A stretch of DNA of 9,003 nucleotides. Source: Spirochaetia bacterium (GTDB taxonomy: Bacteria > Spirochaetota > Spirochaetia > Treponematales > Breznakiellaceae). Shown here piece by piece: positions 185 through 8,911 of the stretch. Each line of letters opens with the position of its first letter. The first letter of the stretch is position 1. The stretch covers positions 1-9,003 of the forward strand of contig BOAU01000081.1 in NCBI GenBank assembly GCA_026002025.1, given 5' to 3'. The notes below the pieces were generated by a model. The model had not been told where the DNA came from. It searched no databases and was given only the letters and a program-made list of their open reading frames with translations. The position numbers and the translations under genes were made by a program.

Positions 185-249
185 GTTTTTACTGTTAAGT
201 CTTTCACTTTTTTGATCTATATATCATTATGGACTTACAGGAGCAGATA

Positions 250-867
250 ATGCAGAAGATAGTGTTTTGTAATATTATGATGAAGGCGCGGCTTGACCGT
301 TTCCGCTATAAGGTCAGCGGTAACAGCACCATAGCATTTGACGGCGAGGTTATTTTCCCCATAAACGGCGTATTGGCGAAGACCCTCAATAAAGACGATA
401 CGGTAAAAGTTGTGCTCCTTAAAAAGGACGACATAAACAACAACAGCGACCGTAATGTCGGCGAGTTTAGAGATGAGCTAAACATCATCAACAAGGGCAT
501 AGGCGCCGCCATAGACTATAAAGTGTTAAGTACGCCCCATGATGAAAGCCGCATCATCCAGGAAAAGCTGCTTAAGGAAATGGTCGATGAATTGAGCGAT
601 GGCGCGGCAATTTATGCCGACATAACCTACGGCCCCAAGTCTACGCCGATTATCGTTTTCAGTGTTTTGAATTTCGCGGAGAAATTTTTCAATGCCGATA
701 TAAAGAACATCGTGTACGGTAAAGTTGATTTCGATAAAGACAATAATCCTGTAAATCCTGAGTTGTTCGATATGACGCCGCTCTTTTATTTAAATTCCCT
801 GGCGAACACCATGGAGTGCAAAGACAGCGATCAGGCAAAAAAATTGTTGGACAGCATTCTATCATAA
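250..867 (+). CDS. CARF-like protein, Csx1/TM1812-type (stand-alone sensor domain)
   Basis: This is a 205-residue protein. The start at 250 is preferred over the in-frame ATG at 229 because AGGAG (239-243) lies 6 bases upstream of it. Residues 121-141 carry a beta-strand followed by D124-I-T-Y-G-P-K-S-T-P133 and then a hydrophobic helix. This mirrors the D-[IL]-T-H-G-[FY] signature and its helix in Csx1/TM1812 CARF proteins. I-V-Y-G-K-V (154-159) and F-D-M-T-P-L (173-178) match the later strand and the 'DLTPLL'-like segment of that family. Such domains bind cyclic oligoadenylate made by type III CRISPR Cas10 (known). No HEPN or other effector domain follows, so by itself it would be a sensor or possibly a ring nuclease (inference). 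The usual motif histidine is Tyr127. It is translationally coupled to the next gene by TAATG. No cas gene is visible, and the assignment rests on motif recognition only. Confidence 0.6.
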   Translation: MQKIVFCNIMMKARLDRFRYKVSGNSTIAFDGEVIFPINGVLAKTLNKDDTVKVVLLKKDDINNNSDRNVGEFRDELNIINKGIGAAIDYKVLSTPHDESRIIQEKLLKEMVDELSDGAAIYADITYGPKSTPIIVFSVLNFAEKFFNADIKNIVYGKVDFDKDNNPVNPELFDMTPLFYLNSLANTMECKDSDQAKKLLDSILS

Positions 868-1754
868 TGAAACGATCCAAAGAAGAATACGAAAAATTAA
901 TAAATAACTCGCCGCTGTTTACTATCGATAAAGACAAGGAAGGCGAACTATACGCTGCCGAAGAAAGGCGGTTTTTAACCGATTTGGCAGAATATCTTTC
1001 GTTATATATATTTACCCAGGACACCTTTGCCGAACTCGGTCTTGAAATTATCGAGACGGCGAAATCATGCATAAAAGCCTTTGACAGCGGTCATGGAAAA
1101 TTTCTGCATTACTTCAATTACGCATTGAGTAATCGGCGGCGCGTGAGCGCAGGAAAAAAAGCTGCGCAGGAACGGCAGCACGGGTTAAAGGTTGGCGATG
1201 ATACGCTTGTCAGAAAGGTAAATGGATATGCACATTTGAAAGGATATGATTTATCGGACACTTCGACGATCAGGCATTTGTGTACCGATACGATGAATTT
1301 GAAGGTGATTGCCGCTTTGTGCAATGTACCAACGGAAGGTGTGGTACACACCATTCGCACAATATACGAAACTTCCGTGTTGGGAGAATTCACCCTCAGC
1401 GATGACGGCAATGAGATAAGCATTTTTGATCGCCTATCAACGCCGGAGACAAAACTTGAAATGAATGATGAAGTGATTGCATTGTTAAAATCCATCGACA
1501 GTGCCTATAAAAACAGCAGGGACAGCCAAAAGCCCCTGCTCAAGAAACTGATAAGCATTAAACTTGCCCCCGTGATTTTAGAGCTGGAACTTGATCCGGC
1601 CTTTGACTTCTGGGATGCTGATATTGAAAAACAATACCGGTTAACCGGCGCCGTTCCTACCGCTCGGGACATTGCGGCGATGTTCGATGTGCTTGAACAG
1701 AGCGCAAGCCGGACAATCAATAATTTTTTCAAAAAAGCTGCGGCAAAGTGTTAA
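867..1754 (+). CDS. Divergent sigma-70-like transcription factor, coupled to the CARF-like gene
   Basis: This is a 295-residue soluble protein. Its ATG shares a base with the preceding stop (TAATG, 865-869), and there is no strong ribosome site of its own, so translation is probably coupled. Residues about 50-95 contain a helical segment with A-F-D-S-G-H-G-K-F-L-H-Y-F-N then a basic S-N-R-R-R. This pattern resembles sigma region 2, where 'FDPxxGxFxxYLxxxLxNR' is common. Residues about 262-291 (V-P-T-A-R-D-I-A-A-M-F-D-V-L-E-Q-S-A-S-R then a basic helix) resemble a region-4 helix-turn-helix for -35 recognition. The middle, residues 100-260, I do not recognise. Sigma-like function is an inference from these two segments; a phage or plasmid-type DNA-binding regulator is the main alternative. 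The gene ends with Lys-Cys, and only 30 bases separate it from the next gene. Confidence 0.55.
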   Translation: MKRSKEEYEKLINNSPLFTIDKDKEGELYAAEERRFLTDLAEYLSLYIFTQDTFAELGLEIIETAKSCIKAFDSGHGKFLHYFNYALSNRRRVSAGKKAAQERQHGLKVGDDTLVRKVNGYAHLKGYDLSDTSTIRHLCTDTMNLKVIAALCNVPTEGVVHTIRTIYETSVLGEFTLSDDGNEISIFDRLSTPETKLEMNDEVIALLKSIDSAYKNSRDSQKPLLKKLISIKLAPVILELELDPAFDFWDADIEKQYRLTGAVPTARDIAAMFDVLEQSASRTINNFFKKAAAKC

Positions 1755-1784
1755 GTTAAGCCAGCCTCAAGACTATTTATAAGT

Positions 1785-2396
1785 ATGAGCAAATACTTAA
1801 AGAAGATGATAACGATAATACTGTTTGGAATATCGGCGGCAGTATATTCACAGGAGATATTTAACTCCAACGATTATTATCTGATGGGAGACATAGGCGT
1901 AAGTTACGATGGAACAGAATTCCATTTGGACCTTATGGGCAGTTATGGATTTTATTTTGATACATTTGGCAGTCTGTATCTCAGGCCTGAACTGGAACTA
2001 TACTATAAAAATGATAGTGAATATTACAGCTGGCGTTTCGGTCCGCACTTATCAGCATTATACGGATATAATATAGGAGCCGAAGCATTCAGCGTATTTT
2101 TGTATGGCGGCGCCGGGATTGGTTACAATTTCCTCTTGTCTTCAACAGAAAGCAGTGGGAGCAGCGGATGGGTTGGGAACGGTATTTTTGGCGCAAAACT
2201 TTTGTTTTATGGGTTCGGCGCCTATGCCGAATACCGGATGAGTTTTTTGGGCGGAACCAATAGATTATCCGTAGGTTTAACTTTTGCGGTTGGGGGCAGC
2301 AGTTACGCTCCCACGCCATATAAACCACCGGCTCCCGCTCCTGCACCGCCGCCTCCGGCTGCAAATAATAAAAACCGCGATAGAGACTACTTTTAA
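1785..2396 (+). CDS. Outer-membrane beta-barrel protein with proline-rich tail
   Basis: This is a 203-residue protein. A Sec signal peptide is clear: basic M-S-K-Y-L-K-K, a hydrophobic core, and a likely cut near A-V-Y-S-Q (about residue 22). The rest alternates hydrophobic and polar residues rich in Gly, Tyr and Phe, in the pattern of amphipathic beta strands. Examples are G-S-Y-G-F-Y-F-D near residue 53, Y-G-G-A-G-I-G-Y-N-F near 107 and F-G-A-Y-A-E-Y-R-M near 145. This fits a small eight-stranded barrel of the OmpW/OmpA-barrel kind. Residues about 176-193 are a Pro/Ala tail, followed by a short charged end. No good ribosome site precedes the ATG at 1785; ATG 1806 is a possible alternative that keeps the signal peptide core. 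Exact family not recognised. Confidence 0.7.
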   Translation: MSKYLKKMITIILFGISAAVYSQEIFNSNDYYLMGDIGVSYDGTEFHLDLMGSYGFYFDTFGSLYLRPELELYYKNDSEYYSWRFGPHLSALYGYNIGAEAFSVFLYGGAGIGYNFLLSSTESSGSSGWVGNGIFGAKLLFYGFGAYAEYRMSFLGGTNRLSVGLTFAVGGSSYAPTPYKPPAPAPAPPPPAANNKNRDRDYF

Positions 2397-2412
2397 TATA
2401 TCAGGGGGGACC

Positions 2413-3195
2413 ATGAAAAGATTTATCATTAAATCCGCAGCGGTAATATTCTTAATACTATCCCTGGCGTCCTCATGCTCTAAAAGCGAACCCTACGGAA
2501 CCATTGAAAGAAGCAGTCCTCCTAATATTAGGTCCGACTTTCAGGAAGGGCAGGGCGTTGATGCGAACAATAACGGCAAACCTGATTTTATCGTGCGGAA
2601 CGGGCGTTTTATCGGTACGGTTTCAGGCAAAGACTTTGGCCCTGCTACCGTGGCAAATTTAAATGCCCGTAAAACTACAGCCCCGACGCAAATAAAGCCC
2701 ACACAGATAAAACCGTCTGCCGTACCGGCCGCAGCATCTGCCATAAATTATACAAACTATACTAATTTCAAAAATTATGCCTACTACCCTGCCCGTCAAT
2801 TTCTCGACACAACAGGCTGGACACTAACATCCCAAAGAAGCCATGAACTGCCTGAGGACATCAAAAACAAGGTTCGGAAAATCGGCGATTACCTGCACGA
2901 CCATTATACCTACGGTACCTACAAGTCATTTGATGGAATAGGGCAGGATGATGACAACGTATTCGATTGCGATGATTTTGCGGGATTAATGTACCGAATG
3001 GGACGCGAAGCCGGACTGGATATGTATATAATCAGCCTGCCCGGCCATTGGGCAAACGCGGTCAGGTATGGGAATACCCTTTACACCGTTGAGCCCCAGG
3101 GAGTAAAGGTAAAGTACCGGGATACAAGCAAATTCGGCAAATTTACATTGGCGGACTATGCCCGTTACACAGAACAAATTGTTGTTGAGCGATAA
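2413..3195 (+). CDS. Lipoprotein with transglutaminase-like cysteine domain
   Basis: This is a 260-residue protein. ATG 2413 is chosen because AGGGGGGA (2403-2410) stands just before it; the open frame extends upstream, but only by overlapping the previous gene. The N-terminus is a lipoprotein signal ending S-L-A-S-S-C22. Residues 50-58 read D-A-N-N-N-G-K-P-D, a calcium-loop-like motif, followed by V-R-N-G. A low-complexity linker with a tandem P-T-Q-I-K repeat (91-100) and N-Y-T-N-Y-T-N follows. The C-terminal domain has F-D-C186-D-D-F-A-G, P-G-H212-W-A-N-A-V and V-E227-P. This spacing fits the Cys-His-acid triad of transglutaminase-like/NlpC-like cysteine hydrolases (known families; the triad assignment is mine). 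It likely acts in the periplasm on peptide or cell-wall substrates. It lies 16 bases after the barrel gene and 14 before the GTPase gene, consistent with one operon. Confidence 0.7.
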   Translation: MKRFIIKSAAVIFLILSLASSCSKSEPYGTIERSSPPNIRSDFQEGQGVDANNNGKPDFIVRNGRFIGTVSGKDFGPATVANLNARKTTAPTQIKPTQIKPSAVPAAASAINYTNYTNFKNYAYYPARQFLDTTGWTLTSQRSHELPEDIKNKVRKIGDYLHDHYTYGTYKSFDGIGQDDDNVFDCDDFAGLMYRMGREAGLDMYIISLPGHWANAVRYGNTLYTVEPQGVKVKYRDTSKFGKFTLADYARYTEQIVVER

Positions 3196-3209
3196 AGGAT
3201 GAATGTGAA

Positions 3210-3851
3210 ATGGAAAACGGTCTGAAAACTATCAAGTGGTTTCCCGCCGGAAACAATGTTGTGTTTTACGGCTATCCGGGCAGCGGGAGAACAAATGCCT
3301 TTATGAAAATTGCGACAAAATTAAAACTTGGGTTGAAAATACCAATAAGCATCGTGAATTGCGATACATGGCATCTGGGAAAAAATTACACAATAGAATC
3401 ATTTGCAGAAATAACAGACATTCCATTTCATAAAATGGAGATCGATAAATTAGCCGATCTTCGGGACGATAATTTGCTTATTTATTTGCGGTTTGATGAA
3501 AGAGGTTACTTTTCAGAAGAAAATAGATCAAACATCGGTTTGAATCTAAATTATTTTTTTCAGAAGGATATTTTTCAGAATAAGAAATTCAAGAAAGTAC
3601 TTGTACTTGATTGTACGCGCAAAGACGATATCAATGATGCGCTAATAGAATCGGTCGGAAAAGATTTTATAGATGCGATAATACTTACAAAAGTTGATTT
3701 GCCCGCAGACAAAGAATCTGTTTACAATTATCTTTGTTCAATAAATATACCTGTAGCATTTATTTCATCCGGAGAAGATATTCTTAATGATGGCGCGTTT
3801 GTTGACAATGCTGTTATCTCAAGGATATTTGAAAAACATCATAAAGAATGA
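3210..3851 (+). CDS. SRP/FlhF-like P-loop GTPase domain protein
   Basis: This is a 213-residue cytoplasmic protein. AAAGGA (3194-3199) precedes the ATG by 10 bases. Motifs appear in SRP-GTPase order: P-loop G21-Y-P-G-S-G-R-T28, V-N-C-D-T-W-H-L-G (49-57) followed by a helix and D-I-P-F (matching the 'DTYRxGAxxQL...IP' box), L-V-L-D-C-T-R-K-D-D (131-140) in place of the DTAGR box, L-T-K-V-D (159-163) for guanine recognition, and F-I-S-S-G-E-D (184-190) as the closing loop. FlhF and SRP54/FtsY have this layout plus an N domain, which is missing here. The P-loop lysine is Arg27, so hydrolysis may be weak or absent. An ATGA overlap couples it to the J-domain gene. In this context it may position or regulate an envelope complex (inference). 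Confidence 0.6.
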   Translation: MENGLKTIKWFPAGNNVVFYGYPGSGRTNAFMKIATKLKLGLKIPISIVNCDTWHLGKNYTIESFAEITDIPFHKMEIDKLADLRDDNLLIYLRFDERGYFSEENRSNIGLNLNYFFQKDIFQNKKFKKVLVLDCTRKDDINDALIESVGKDFIDAIILTKVDLPADKESVYNYLCSINIPVAFISSGEDILNDGAFVDNAVISRIFEKHHKE

Positions 3852-4573
3852 GAAATATATGTTTGGTTATTTGTATTTTTTTATTCTCAGCTTTATTAAA
3901 CGCCGAACAAGTGCGGGACCATAACAACAACGGACACATCGATAATTATGATGTTGCACGGTCACACCCAAACGATTATTTCTGGAGAAATGGGTCATGG
4001 TATTACCTGAATCAAGGGGATATTAATTATGCGCGAAACGCAGTAAACTACCCAAGACAAAATCAAAAAACACAAGGCGGCACAACGAAAAATGGGCATC
4101 CCGTATTAATTATTATCGCGATTATTGGCGGAATTTACCTTACAAAAAAGTTTTTAAATTATTATGAGGAGAAAGCATACCAGGAACAACTCAGGGTACA
4201 ACGAATAGAAAGAAACAGACAAGAACAACTGATGCGGCAAAGGGAAGCGGAGTTTTTAGCTCAACAAGAACGGGAATATCAGGAGTTGCTAAGAAGACAG
4301 TTGTTTGAAGCGTTTATGCGTGAATACAAAAGGACAGTCCCTCCGCCTAAAGCGCCGCCGCAGTCTGATATGGTTTCATTTTACCGGAATATGCTGGGGC
4401 TTAGATTGCAATTTACCCAGGACGAGCTCAAAAGTGCCTATCGTGAAGCCGTGAAAAAATATCATCCCGATAAATACACCGATGCTTCAGAGCGCGACAG
4501 GGAAAATGCTGAAATGCTTATGAAGCAGGTTGTCGATGGGTATGAGGTGTTAAACGAGTTGACAAAGTGTTAA
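3848..4573 (+). CDS. Single-pass membrane protein with cytoplasmic coiled coil and C-terminal J domain
   Basis: This is a 241-residue protein whose start overlaps the preceding stop (ATGA, 3848-3851). Residues 1-19 are a signal peptide or first membrane helix. A short exported segment has D24-H-N-N-N-G-H-I-D32 and F-W-R-N-G (45-49). A transmembrane helix spans about 85-99 (V-L-I-I-I-A-I-I-G-G-I-Y-L), then basic K-K. Residues 105-160 are a Gln/Glu/Arg-rich coiled coil, then a Pro-rich hinge (164-171). A C-terminal J domain follows (about 175-238) with the diagnostic H206-P-D208 in K-K-Y-H-P-D-K-Y. J domains stimulate DnaK-type Hsp70 ATPase (known), so the J domain should face the cytoplasm, consistent with the predicted topology. 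The placement suggests recruitment of Hsp70 to the envelope complex made by its neighbours (inference). Confidence 0.8.
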   Translation: MRNICLVICIFLFSALLNAEQVRDHNNNGHIDNYDVARSHPNDYFWRNGSWYYLNQGDINYARNAVNYPRQNQKTQGGTTKNGHPVLIIIAIIGGIYLTKKFLNYYEEKAYQEQLRVQRIERNRQEQLMRQREAEFLAQQEREYQELLRRQLFEAFMREYKRTVPPPKAPPQSDMVSFYRNMLGLRLQFTQDELKSAYREAVKKYHPDKYTDASERDRENAEMLMKQVVDGYEVLNELTKC

Positions 4574-4589
4574 GTTTCTTTATCTTTCC

Positions 4590-4598
4590 TGCTATAAT
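4590..4598 (+). promoter_or_regulatory. Extended -10 promoter for the second lipoprotein gene
   Basis: TGC-TATAAT at 4590-4598 is a perfect -10 hexamer with the TGn extension. A consensus TTGACA lies at 4559-4564, but 28 bases away, too far to pair with it; the hexamer at the proper distance (about 4570-4575) is weak, which an extended -10 tolerates. Predicted transcription start is near 4605, giving a short leader containing AGGGGG at 4617-4622. This places a transcription boundary between the J-domain gene and the next gene. Confidence 0.6.
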
Positions 4599-4630
4599 AA
4601 AGGATGATACTATTTTAGGGGGTGTGTAAA

Positions 4631-5551
4631 ATGAAGGTTACTATTTTTGCTTTAATAATTGCGTTGGCCAGTTGTGGATCAACGCCTGCACAAACAGGCA
4701 GAAGTCAACAGGACACTGGTGAAGAACATCTGTCATCTTCAACGAGAACAAATACATTCAACGGTATTTCAGTTGAGGTGATTGGGATTCCTTATGAATA
4801 TAAAGATATTTGTGGTTATCGATCATTGGACTCCCTTATAGAGGCAGAGTATAAGTCGATATCCACCGGACAGTCTTCATCGTTTGTCAATTTTAGTATT
4901 GACAAGTTTATTTTTAACTTTAATGCAAATGGCAGCCTGGTTATCAGCGCCCTCTACAGCTATGATAAAACACCGGCGGAAAATGGGGGATTTTATCCTG
5001 CCCAATCAGGGAGGATACACGAATGGAAACTTGAACCTAAATACCACCGCCATTCCGGCGGTAATTGTTCGCTTGATTTCTACAATGACAGCGCAGTCTC
5101 CCAGGCAAAACTAAACGAGATGCGGAGCGACCCCTCTTTGGGAAAGGTGTATGATGTACTCCTTTCTGTTGCAGAAGATATGGATTACAATTATCCTGCC
5201 ATTGGCCGCAGGGCCGCATTTGTCACACTGCCAAATGGCAAGGAGCCGTTAAAAGGTGTCTGCGATGATTATTCCAATCTCTTGATTAATAGACTCACTG
5301 CGGCCAATATCAATGGTGTTAGCAATATACAAAAGGTGACAGGACAAAACCACGCATGGGTTACCCTTGTTTACAAAGGAAAAACTCTTTATCTTGATGC
5401 CACATGGTTTGACAAAAACAACATCAATGAAAATGGCGTGGTTGACCATACACCTTACAAAGACCCGCGCAACATGACCTTCGACAACGAAATCTTTACA
5501 AATCATAATCAACATCATATTGCCGGGGGCACAAGAAACATTGGATCATGA
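4631..5551 (+). CDS. Lipoprotein with classical transglutaminase-like domain
   Basis: This is a 306-residue protein. ATG 4631 is preferred over in-frame GTG 4622 because AGGGGG (4617-4622) sits 8 bases upstream of it and the resulting signal peptide is compact, ending in the lipobox L-A-S-C15. A Ser/Thr-rich linker follows to about residue 45. Residues 45-165 hold a domain of unknown role. The C-terminal part has G-V-C211-D-D-Y-S, N-H241-A-W-V and L-D256-A-T-W-F-D. This is the canonical Cys-His-Asp core of bacterial transglutaminase-like proteins (PF01841-type; known), often proteases or transpeptidases acting on extracytoplasmic peptides. It differs from the lipoprotein at 2413 in spacing and surrounding sequence, so it is not a simple recent duplicate. 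It is read from its own promoter at 4590. Confidence 0.8.
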   Translation: MKVTIFALIIALASCGSTPAQTGRSQQDTGEEHLSSSTRTNTFNGISVEVIGIPYEYKDICGYRSLDSLIEAEYKSISTGQSSSFVNFSIDKFIFNFNANGSLVISALYSYDKTPAENGGFYPAQSGRIHEWKLEPKYHRHSGGNCSLDFYNDSAVSQAKLNEMRSDPSLGKVYDVLLSVAEDMDYNYPAIGRRAAFVTLPNGKEPLKGVCDDYSNLLINRLTAANINGVSNIQKVTGQNHAWVTLVYKGKTLYLDATWFDKNNINENGVVDHTPYKDPRNMTFDNEIFTNHNQHHIAGGTRNIGS

Positions 5552-6201: not shown

Positions 6202-6819
6202 ATGGCAGACTTGCCCAAGGGATTTACCCTCTCAACAAGGGATTTCAAGAAAACAACGGTGGGAGCCAAATTGGGTGAAGGGGGACAGGGGGCGGTCTAC
6301 CAGGTGGACTACGATGGCCAGCCCAAGGCCCTCAAATGGTATACCGCAGCACTAAAAAACCCGAAAAAGTTCTATGAAAATCTGGAAAATAACATCAAAA
6401 AGGGGGCTCCTGCCAACGCCTTCCTCTGGCCCGAGGCCATTACAGAAAAGCAGGGGGAAGCCTTCGGGTATATCATGAATCTGCGGCCCCCGGAGTATGT
6501 GGATTTTTCCCGGTTCCTTATCGGTAAGGAGGGGTTTGCCAGTATTACCGCCATGGTCAACGCAGCCCTGCGGATTACCGAGGGGTTCCAGGAATTGCAC
6601 CTCAAGGGGTACAGCTACCAGGACCTGAATGACGGCAACTTCTTTATCAACCCCGAAAATGGGGATGTGCTGATCTGCGATAACGACAACGTGTCCGAGT
6701 ACGGCAAGAATTCGGGGATTGCGGGGAAGGCCCGGTACATGGCGCCGGAGGTGGTGCTGGGCAAAAACCAGCCGGGGATTAAGACCGATAGCTTTTCCCT
6801 GGGGGTAGTATTGACATAG
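6202..6819 (+). pseudogene. Ser/Thr-type protein kinase, truncated in the C-lobe
   Basis: This frame has 205 residues, started by ATG with AAGGGG 5 bases upstream. Kinase motifs are in order: glycine loop G25-E-G-G-Q-G30-A-V-Y, A-L-K45 for the ATP lysine, Y-S-Y-Q-D141-L-N-D-G-N146 as the catalytic loop (the usual H-R-D is Y-Q-D), C-D160-N-D-N for the metal-binding DFG site, M-A-P-E183 and D196-S-F-S-L-G of helix F. The frame then ends at V-V-L-T, so the rest of the C-lobe and any C-terminal domain are gone. The DNA is clearly richer in G and C than the sequence right after it, which points to a recombination joint near 6811-6815 rather than a point mutation. Such kinases often sit with PP2C phosphatase and vWA genes in stress clusters (known), none of which is present. 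A functional product is unlikely. Confidence 0.75.
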
Positions 6820-7888: not shown

Positions 7889-8911
7889 TTGATATCAAGT
7901 TGGGGATTAAAGAATTTTAAATCCATAAAAGAGGCAAGCCTTGAATTTGCACCTCTTACGGTGCTGACTGGAACAAACAGTAGCGGTAAAAGTTCCCTAT
8001 TACAGTCAATTCTTGCAATTTCCCAGACCCTTGCTTATAAAGACACTTCTCGCCAACTTGTATTAAACGGCGAAATGGTTCGTTTAGGTGATTTTGAGAC
8101 AATTTTAACCTCGGGTGCCAAGGACAAAACGCTTGCCGTAGAATTCACCGTAGAACCAGAGATGAGTGCTTTTGAGACAGAAGCGATAAGAAAGTTAATC
8201 TTGCTGGGAAATATCCATTTTAAAGAGAATATACATCTTGAAATGACATTTAACAATGGTGAACATGACGTATTTCCGTATCTTCAGGACCTTTCCCTTC
8301 ATACCTTAGATGACAATAAAAATATACGCAGCATTATGAAAATCAAGCGAAAAAAAGGTGATTATGACGAGATTCCCGCAAGTGAAATGGTGTCAGATAT
8401 GGATAATTTAGCTCTTTATCAAATTTTACCAACAAAATTCAACGTTATTGATTATTCCATAAAATTACCATTAAATAATTCTTATAATAAAAAACAAGAT
8501 ATTTATAAGCGTCATCAAATAGCAGAGTTTGAATGTTCCATGAAACATTTTTTACCGTCAGCGGTGCAATTTATTGTAAATGAAATCCTTGAATATGCTA
8601 GAATGGTTACTAAGTTTCTTAACGATCCACTTAGTCCATTTAGTAGATCGGATATGACACTAGCTCAAAAACATTTTTTGCCGTTTATAGGTGCCTGCGC
8701 AGACGGAATATCCAATAAGGCTGAATTTATAAGAAAAATGCGCAAAAATGCCTTAGCTCTCCAAGATTCACTATTAAGGTTAAGAGAAGAATTATCTTCA
8801 GAACCTACGTCTAAAACAAATAATAACATTGAAACAGATAAAGAAGATAAGAAACCAAACTCGGAAGCGGATCAAATTGGAATTGCCCCGGTTGGGTGGA
8901 CAGTTGGTTAA
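7889..8911 (+). pseudogene. OLD/DUF3696-like AAA ATPase, truncated by an insertion sequence
   Basis: This frame has 340 residues. It starts at TTG 7889, supported by GGAG (7878-7881) 7 bases upstream and by the typical opening I-S-S-W-G-L-K-N-F-K-S-I. Residues 17-40 carry L-E-F-A-P-L-T-V-L-T-G28-T-N-S-S-G-K33-S-S-L-L-Q-S, a canonical Walker A of the SMC/OLD/AAA_15-type ATPases; G-D-F-E-T-I-L near 67-73 also fits this group. The middle is an insertion-like helical region. The expected second half with signature, Walker B and C-terminal domain is missing. The last 11 residues, from I330 on, are encoded by the terminus of the IS3-like element starting at about 8878, so the frame was interrupted. 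Relatives act in anti-phage systems (Gabija, Septu, OLD; known), which suggests but does not prove a defence role. Confidence 0.75.

Follow-up and report, generated by a model that had tools for sequence, protein, structure and literature searches.

A 9,003-nucleotide (nt) contig of a Spirochaetia bacterium (GenBank assembly GCA_026002025.1, contig BOAU01000081.1; this whole stretch is 'the window') carries a gene for a CARF-only protein followed by one for a divergent sigma-70-family factor, and we conclude that the pair is most probably a nucleotide-controlled transcription switch that drives neighbouring, exchangeable gene modules. The original prediction had read such a switch from the two genes alone; this reading was supported, as CARF relatives were found for the first protein, sigma relatives for the second and the pair itself in other genomes, and as the pairs share a promoter-like sequence.

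In the proposed mechanism, the CARF protein would sense a nucleotide, which may be cyclic oligoadenylate where a type III CRISPR system is present and otherwise another nucleotide or an RNA-end signal, and would control its dedicated, co-translated sigma factor, most likely by keeping it inactive until ligand binding. The freed sigma would direct RNA polymerase to a private promoter of the TGTYAAS-N17-CTATATA type, activating its own operon through an upstream site, with positive feedback as a consequence, along with adjacent output modules, in many cases antiviral genes. We infer the ligand, the CARF–sigma contact, the sign of control and transcription from the sites.

The CARF protein and its sigma partner

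The first protein (206–212 aa) was CARF throughout by both structural model and profile. It matched the PADLOC profile PDLC01820 CARF2--CARF over residues 8–211 (E = 8.9e-79) and its model has a CARF-type Rossmann fold, bearing out a family call that had been made by eye; its score against the TM1812 equivalog TIGR02221 was below the cut-off (40.4 vs 76.25 bits). With regard to cyclic oligoadenylate binding, a superfamily trait that is putative here, the motif D-I-T-x-x-x-K was unvarying across 25 CARF members. A library scan of the window's open reading frames (ORFs) gave no AAA+ match in this protein, and a PHROGs search with the CARF and sigma proteins returned a best E value of only 0.075.

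The sigma identity of the second protein emerged from its family. On its own it reached E = 0.098 in a sigma homology search; a profile of 47 family members matched 54 chains among PDB sequences at E up to 10, 52 of them sigma factors, with SigA (2.6e-5) and sigmaF (3.2e-5) the best. TIGR02937 was matched by 21 of the 47 members (E up to 1; best 8.3e-8) and Sigma70_r3 by 4 of 26 (best 7.6e-7). The predicted structure has helical parts at residues 5–104, 112–170 and 193–294 and a linker at 171–199 with a predicted local distance difference test score below 50, giving the order sigma2, sigma3, region 3.2 linker and sigma4, and all 50 rows shown in a structural re-alignment were RNA polymerase or sigma entries. 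The protein is thus a sigma-70-family member by homology; that it binds polymerase and initiates transcription is predicted from the placement of the sites and the helix match described below. At one locus (L001, 10634–11740) the sigma gene appears chimeric with galactokinase-like sequence (P0013), perhaps through misassembly.

The one-base overlap of CARF stop and sigma start was confirmed, and the pairing was conserved. A relative of the sigma gene immediately followed the CARF gene in 34 of 42 loci by BLAST clustering and in three more (L037–L039) by alignment at low identity; at L025, L034, L040 and L041 the locus ends nearby or the CARF gene is truncated, and the last locus, L042, holds a remnant. 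In the 34 pairs both genes share a strand and are separated by −1 to +23 nt; L002 and L007 are exceptions, the longest open frame there giving an overlap. A survey of 296 Spirochaetota genomes found the CARF gene in 15 of them, in 20 copies, of which 18 had a sigma-profile match next, while the remaining two are followed on their own strand by an ORF, at distances of 2 and 5 nt; three copies (L083, L087, L099) duplicate earlier loci, leaving 15 of 17 new ones with a sigma match. Carriers included Treponema and other Spirochaetes, Clostridia, Deferribacteraceae, Fibrobacter, Cloacimonadota and Gastranaerophilales. The CARF protein of the window is 70% identical to that of a Deferribacteraceae metagenome-assembled genome (MAG), which suggests transfer. 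No relative of the pair was found in viral_contigs.

The same conservation suits a different arrangement, in which the CARF–ligand complex assists the sigma on RNA polymerase as a co-activator and exerts no restraint. Constant gene order and near-zero gaps are expected of any stoichiometric complex, and the CARF protein is better conserved than its partner (70% vs 33–35% between the window and L003 or L004). However, positive feedback through the site upstream of the pair would need a brake, which restraint would supply and co-activation would not, and we consider the co-activator unlikely. Improbable to a further degree is a CARF protein that serves as an off-switch, be it ring nuclease or ligand sponge, next to a sigma that acts without touching it: the stand-alone CARF ring nucleases Sso2081 and Sis0455 are among the structural neighbours of the window protein, but strict pairing persists where no type III genes were detected in the carrier. 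Restraint of the sigma by the CARF protein stays our preferred reading.

Several genomes hold two or three copies of the pair (G027, G326, G036, G086, G196); in G027 one copy (L028) stands before a MoxR module and the other (L033) before viperin. Small proteins, roughly 114 aa or 152 aa long, recur upstream of the pair (L005, L006, L010, L012, L014, L016, L031; L008, L009, L015, L041), as does a protein that looks DEDD-exonuclease-like by eye (L006, L007, L012, L031). We rejected the miniature cyclase mCpol as an identity for the small proteins, having seen no cyclase motif by eye (no model search was made).

Promoter-like sites and the sigma region-4.2 helix

Regions upstream of the pairs have in common TGTYAAS-N16..18-CTATATA or CTAATA. 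A strict pattern, derived from some of the same loci in which it was counted, occurred 48 times in 642 kb compared with 10.5 in mononucleotide shuffles, and 47 of the 48 matches lay on the CARF strand; a looser pattern showed no excess (97 vs 97.75). We also trained a site matrix solely on sites no more than 200 nt upstream of the CARF gene (14 loci, three near-duplicates dropped). Outside the training positions, 17 of 36 sigma gene ends, near-duplicate loci included, scored at least 8 bits, compared with 20 of 455 other gene ends (rank-test p = 5e-6; L001, L017, L025, L034, L040, L041 and L042 left out), these controls being uncorrected: 13 of the 20 fall inside these modules, some of them training sites seen from the upstream gene end. 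At 17 bits or more, the matrix, made neutral to the two −35 variants, found 40 sites on the CARF strand, up to 14 of them training sites, and one on the opposite strand, with a permuted-column mean of 1.0 for each. Fifteen further loci, among them L112, which is closely related to the T. vincentii locus, gave 11 sites on the CARF strand and none opposite, spread over seven of the loci. The window holds three TGTTAAG-N17-CTAT copies (Table 1), for which shuffling predicts 0.009. Of the 18 loci that hold more than one site, 16 were consistent in the site variant (L020 and L040 were discordant).

The −35 variant largely followed a helix of the adjacent sigma factor, which profile alignment to sigmaF, together with general knowledge of sigma factors, assigns to region 4.2. 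On the CARF strand at 15 bits or more, −35 position 4 was T in 14 of 14 loci with an E[QEA]S helix (the window, L002–L012, L014, L031). At the same threshold it was C at the pair-nearest site in 11 of 11 loci with a KT[DN] helix (L019–L022, L024, L026–L028, L032, L033, L035); L020 has an additional TGTTAAC site 8.6 kb away, and no such site at 15 bits or more was present in the KT[DN] loci L023, L029 and L030. Among weaker sites (12–15 bits) the variants were mixed. Fisher's test of helix class against −35 variant gave 2e-7, a value that overstates independence because helix classes follow clades. By eye, sigmas with a DEGY helix (L082, L085 and L083, the last a repeat of L018) are accompanied by TATCAA at both places, and those with a TKS helix are followed by TGGAAAC (L095, L098) or TGTCAAC (L089, L091). 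That the pairs share a promoter, with a −35 element that for the most part tracks the region-4.2 helix, supports a working transcription switch.

The regulon that we claim is confined to these local sites. A genome-wide regulon was rejected in T. vincentii (7 pattern matches vs 9 for the reversed control, two of the seven in this locus and 4.3 kb apart), in a Cloacimonadota genome (9 vs 10) and in T. saccharophilum (0 vs 5).

Output modules and the relation to CRISPR

In relatives, a second site often stands before the next gene, and defence-type genes lie behind the sites. Upf1-type helicases resembling MkoA of Mokosh follow them (2.6e-77 at L005), as do MoxR-type AAA proteins (L024, L028) and viperin, which begins 22 nt after a site at L033 (2.2e-69) and has a weak 13.2-bit site before it at L111 (7.3e-65). 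A further set seen repeatedly consists of VWA, PP2C, kinase and helicase genes (L003, L004, L032, L035). In T. vincentii, a CBASS-type (cyclic oligonucleotide-based antiphage signalling system) phospholipase and cyclase come after the pair; a 10.5-bit match immediately follows the sigma gene, and a stronger site of 15.9 bits follows the CBASS-type genes, 31 nt before a MoxR-related gene. The genes after sites 2 and 3 of the window encode envelope-like proteins, a GTPase and a DnaJ protein, which in PADLOC gave only weak IetA matches for the GTPase (6.4e-5).

The switch looks like a portable one for turning on bacterial immunity, with matching promoters ahead of the pair and also ahead of diverse neighbouring gene sets, several of which are antiviral. 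We lean towards the view, held with less confidence than the switch itself, that it is an undescribed, CRISPR-independent cassette of CARF sensor, private sigma and private promoter, one that passes from phylum to phylum and connects to exchangeable antiviral modules (viperin, Mokosh-like helicase, MoxR–VWA, kinase–phosphatase–VWA), joined also by CBASS and type III CRISPR loci, implying a nucleotide alarm signal in hosts without Cas10. If so, bacteria with CRISPR-free genomes would deploy their antiviral weapons through sigma switching triggered by a nucleotide and not through direct activation of effectors, the promoter signature would offer a sequence-only route to listing new defence genes, and the question becomes which signal the CARF protein reads where Cas10 is absent. 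We rejected CD-NTase as the general source, with PF18144 in 5 of 40 carriers. Two side observations concern neighbouring modules. At L026 (T. vincentii OMZ 806, 11684–16677), a CBASS-type patatin effector and a cyclase, the latter seemingly split in two frames, lie between the pair and MoxR-related frames. At L104, an AbiD-like gene (1937–2893; 1.3e-22) immediately follows the pair, genes that are MoxR-like by eye occupy the opposite strand, and a 21.2-bit site points away from them.

A link to type III CRISPR stood for a few loci and failed for most carriers. At T. saccharophilum L038, where no site was found before the pair, the sigma gene overlaps a gene that is cas6-like by eye, followed by Cas10 and RAMP genes; at L039, by eye, the start of a Cas10-like gene follows the pair; and type III genes lie upstream of a CARF–sigma remnant at L042. 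The Cas10 palm model PF22335 exceeded its cut-off in 8 of the 40 carriers of one genome set and in 4 of the 15 of another, but because it also matched an E. coli control, we judged type III presence by RAMPs (PF03787) in these two genome sets, which share three genomes and leave out those of L001 and the window. RAMP genes were present in 6 of 40 and 3 of 15 carriers; six of the 40 had both RAMP and Cas10 matches over cut-off, and G017 and G002 passed the Cas10 cut-off without RAMPs. No RAMP match was found in the other 34 and 12, which include the complete T. vincentii chromosome and G326 and G270 (carrier contigs of 2.7 and 3.4 Mb); some of these absences may be false, because many carriers are draft MAGs of uncertain completeness. 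On these counts a type III accessory role for the pair, with Cas10 and RAMP genes overlooked because the genomes are drafts, is very improbable; the counts point to a general switch sometimes used by type III loci. In the L042 remnant (9893–10621), 3′ of the type III genes, the first part of CARF and a later part of sigma are fused in one frame.

CapW is a WYL-domain repressor rather than a sigma factor. As a regulator of CBASS it provides transcriptional control of a defence operon (PMC9122588). In CalpL–CalpT–CalpS of type III CRISPR, cyclic-nucleotide sensing ends in a sigma factor (PMC11229360), as proposed for the window pair. Calp, however, uses a SAVED-Lon sensor and a cleavable anti-sigma factor, whereas the window has a CARF-only sensor, a scan of 10 window ORFs brought up no Lon-type protease, and RAMP genes went undetected in most carriers as counted above. 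RtcR also feeds a CARF domain into sigma-dependent transcription (PMC4012209); it is a single protein with CARF and AAA+ domains acting on sigma-54, unlike the separate CARF protein of the window, which has a sigma-70-family factor and a promoter of its own. Csa3, a CARF-wHTH transcription factor (PMC8699464), binds DNA through its own domain, whereas the window CARF protein lacks one and adjoins a sigma factor. As far as the passages from these reports show, none of the three couples a CARF-only sensor to its own sigma-70-family factor; a search of open-licence papers found no CARF and sigma-70 pair, which leaves its absence from print unproven.

Features of the window

The window's features are collected in Table 1. 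For the second putative output gene, the ORF listing starts at a GTG at 4622, and AGGGGG precedes the ATG at 4631.

Table 1. Positions of the proposed switch, its promoter-like sites and putative outputs in the window
Feature	Position	Strand	Remarks
Promoter-like site 1, TGTTAAG-N17-CTATATA	193–223	+	Upstream of CARF–sigma operon; putative autoregulation, from sequence
CARF-only sensor gene	250–867	+	Open frame begins at 229; ATG at 250 preceded by GGAG
Divergent sigma-70-family factor, 295 aa	867–1754	+	Start overlaps CARF stop by one base (TAATG)
Promoter-like site 2, TGTTAAG-N17-CTATTTA	1749–1779	+	Overlaps sigma stop; 5 nt between its end and next ATG
First putative output operon	1785–4573	+	Presumed single operon under site 2, from position
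Outer-membrane-like protein, first output set	1785–2396		By eye
Transglutaminase-like lipoprotein, first output set	2404–3195		Pfam match under cut-off
SRP54-type GTPase, first output set	3210–3851		
DnaJ-domain protein, first output set	3848–4573		
Promoter-like site 3, TGTTAAG-N17-CTATAAT	4568–4598	+	
Second putative output, lipoprotein-like	4631–5551	+	By eye; weak transglutaminase-like match under cut-off

Two different predicted products of the first output set, those of 2404–3195 and 3848–4573, both show by eye an N-N-N-G stretch and then an RNG motif near the N terminus. Further downstream, 6202–6819 encodes a short kinase that is a BLAST relative of the kinases in the VWA–PP2C–kinase sets listed above, and 7889–8911 encodes an AAA_15 ATPase with an NsnB-like N terminus (3.3e-24) and 48.8% identity over 82 residues to the product of the gene two upstream of CARF at L037.
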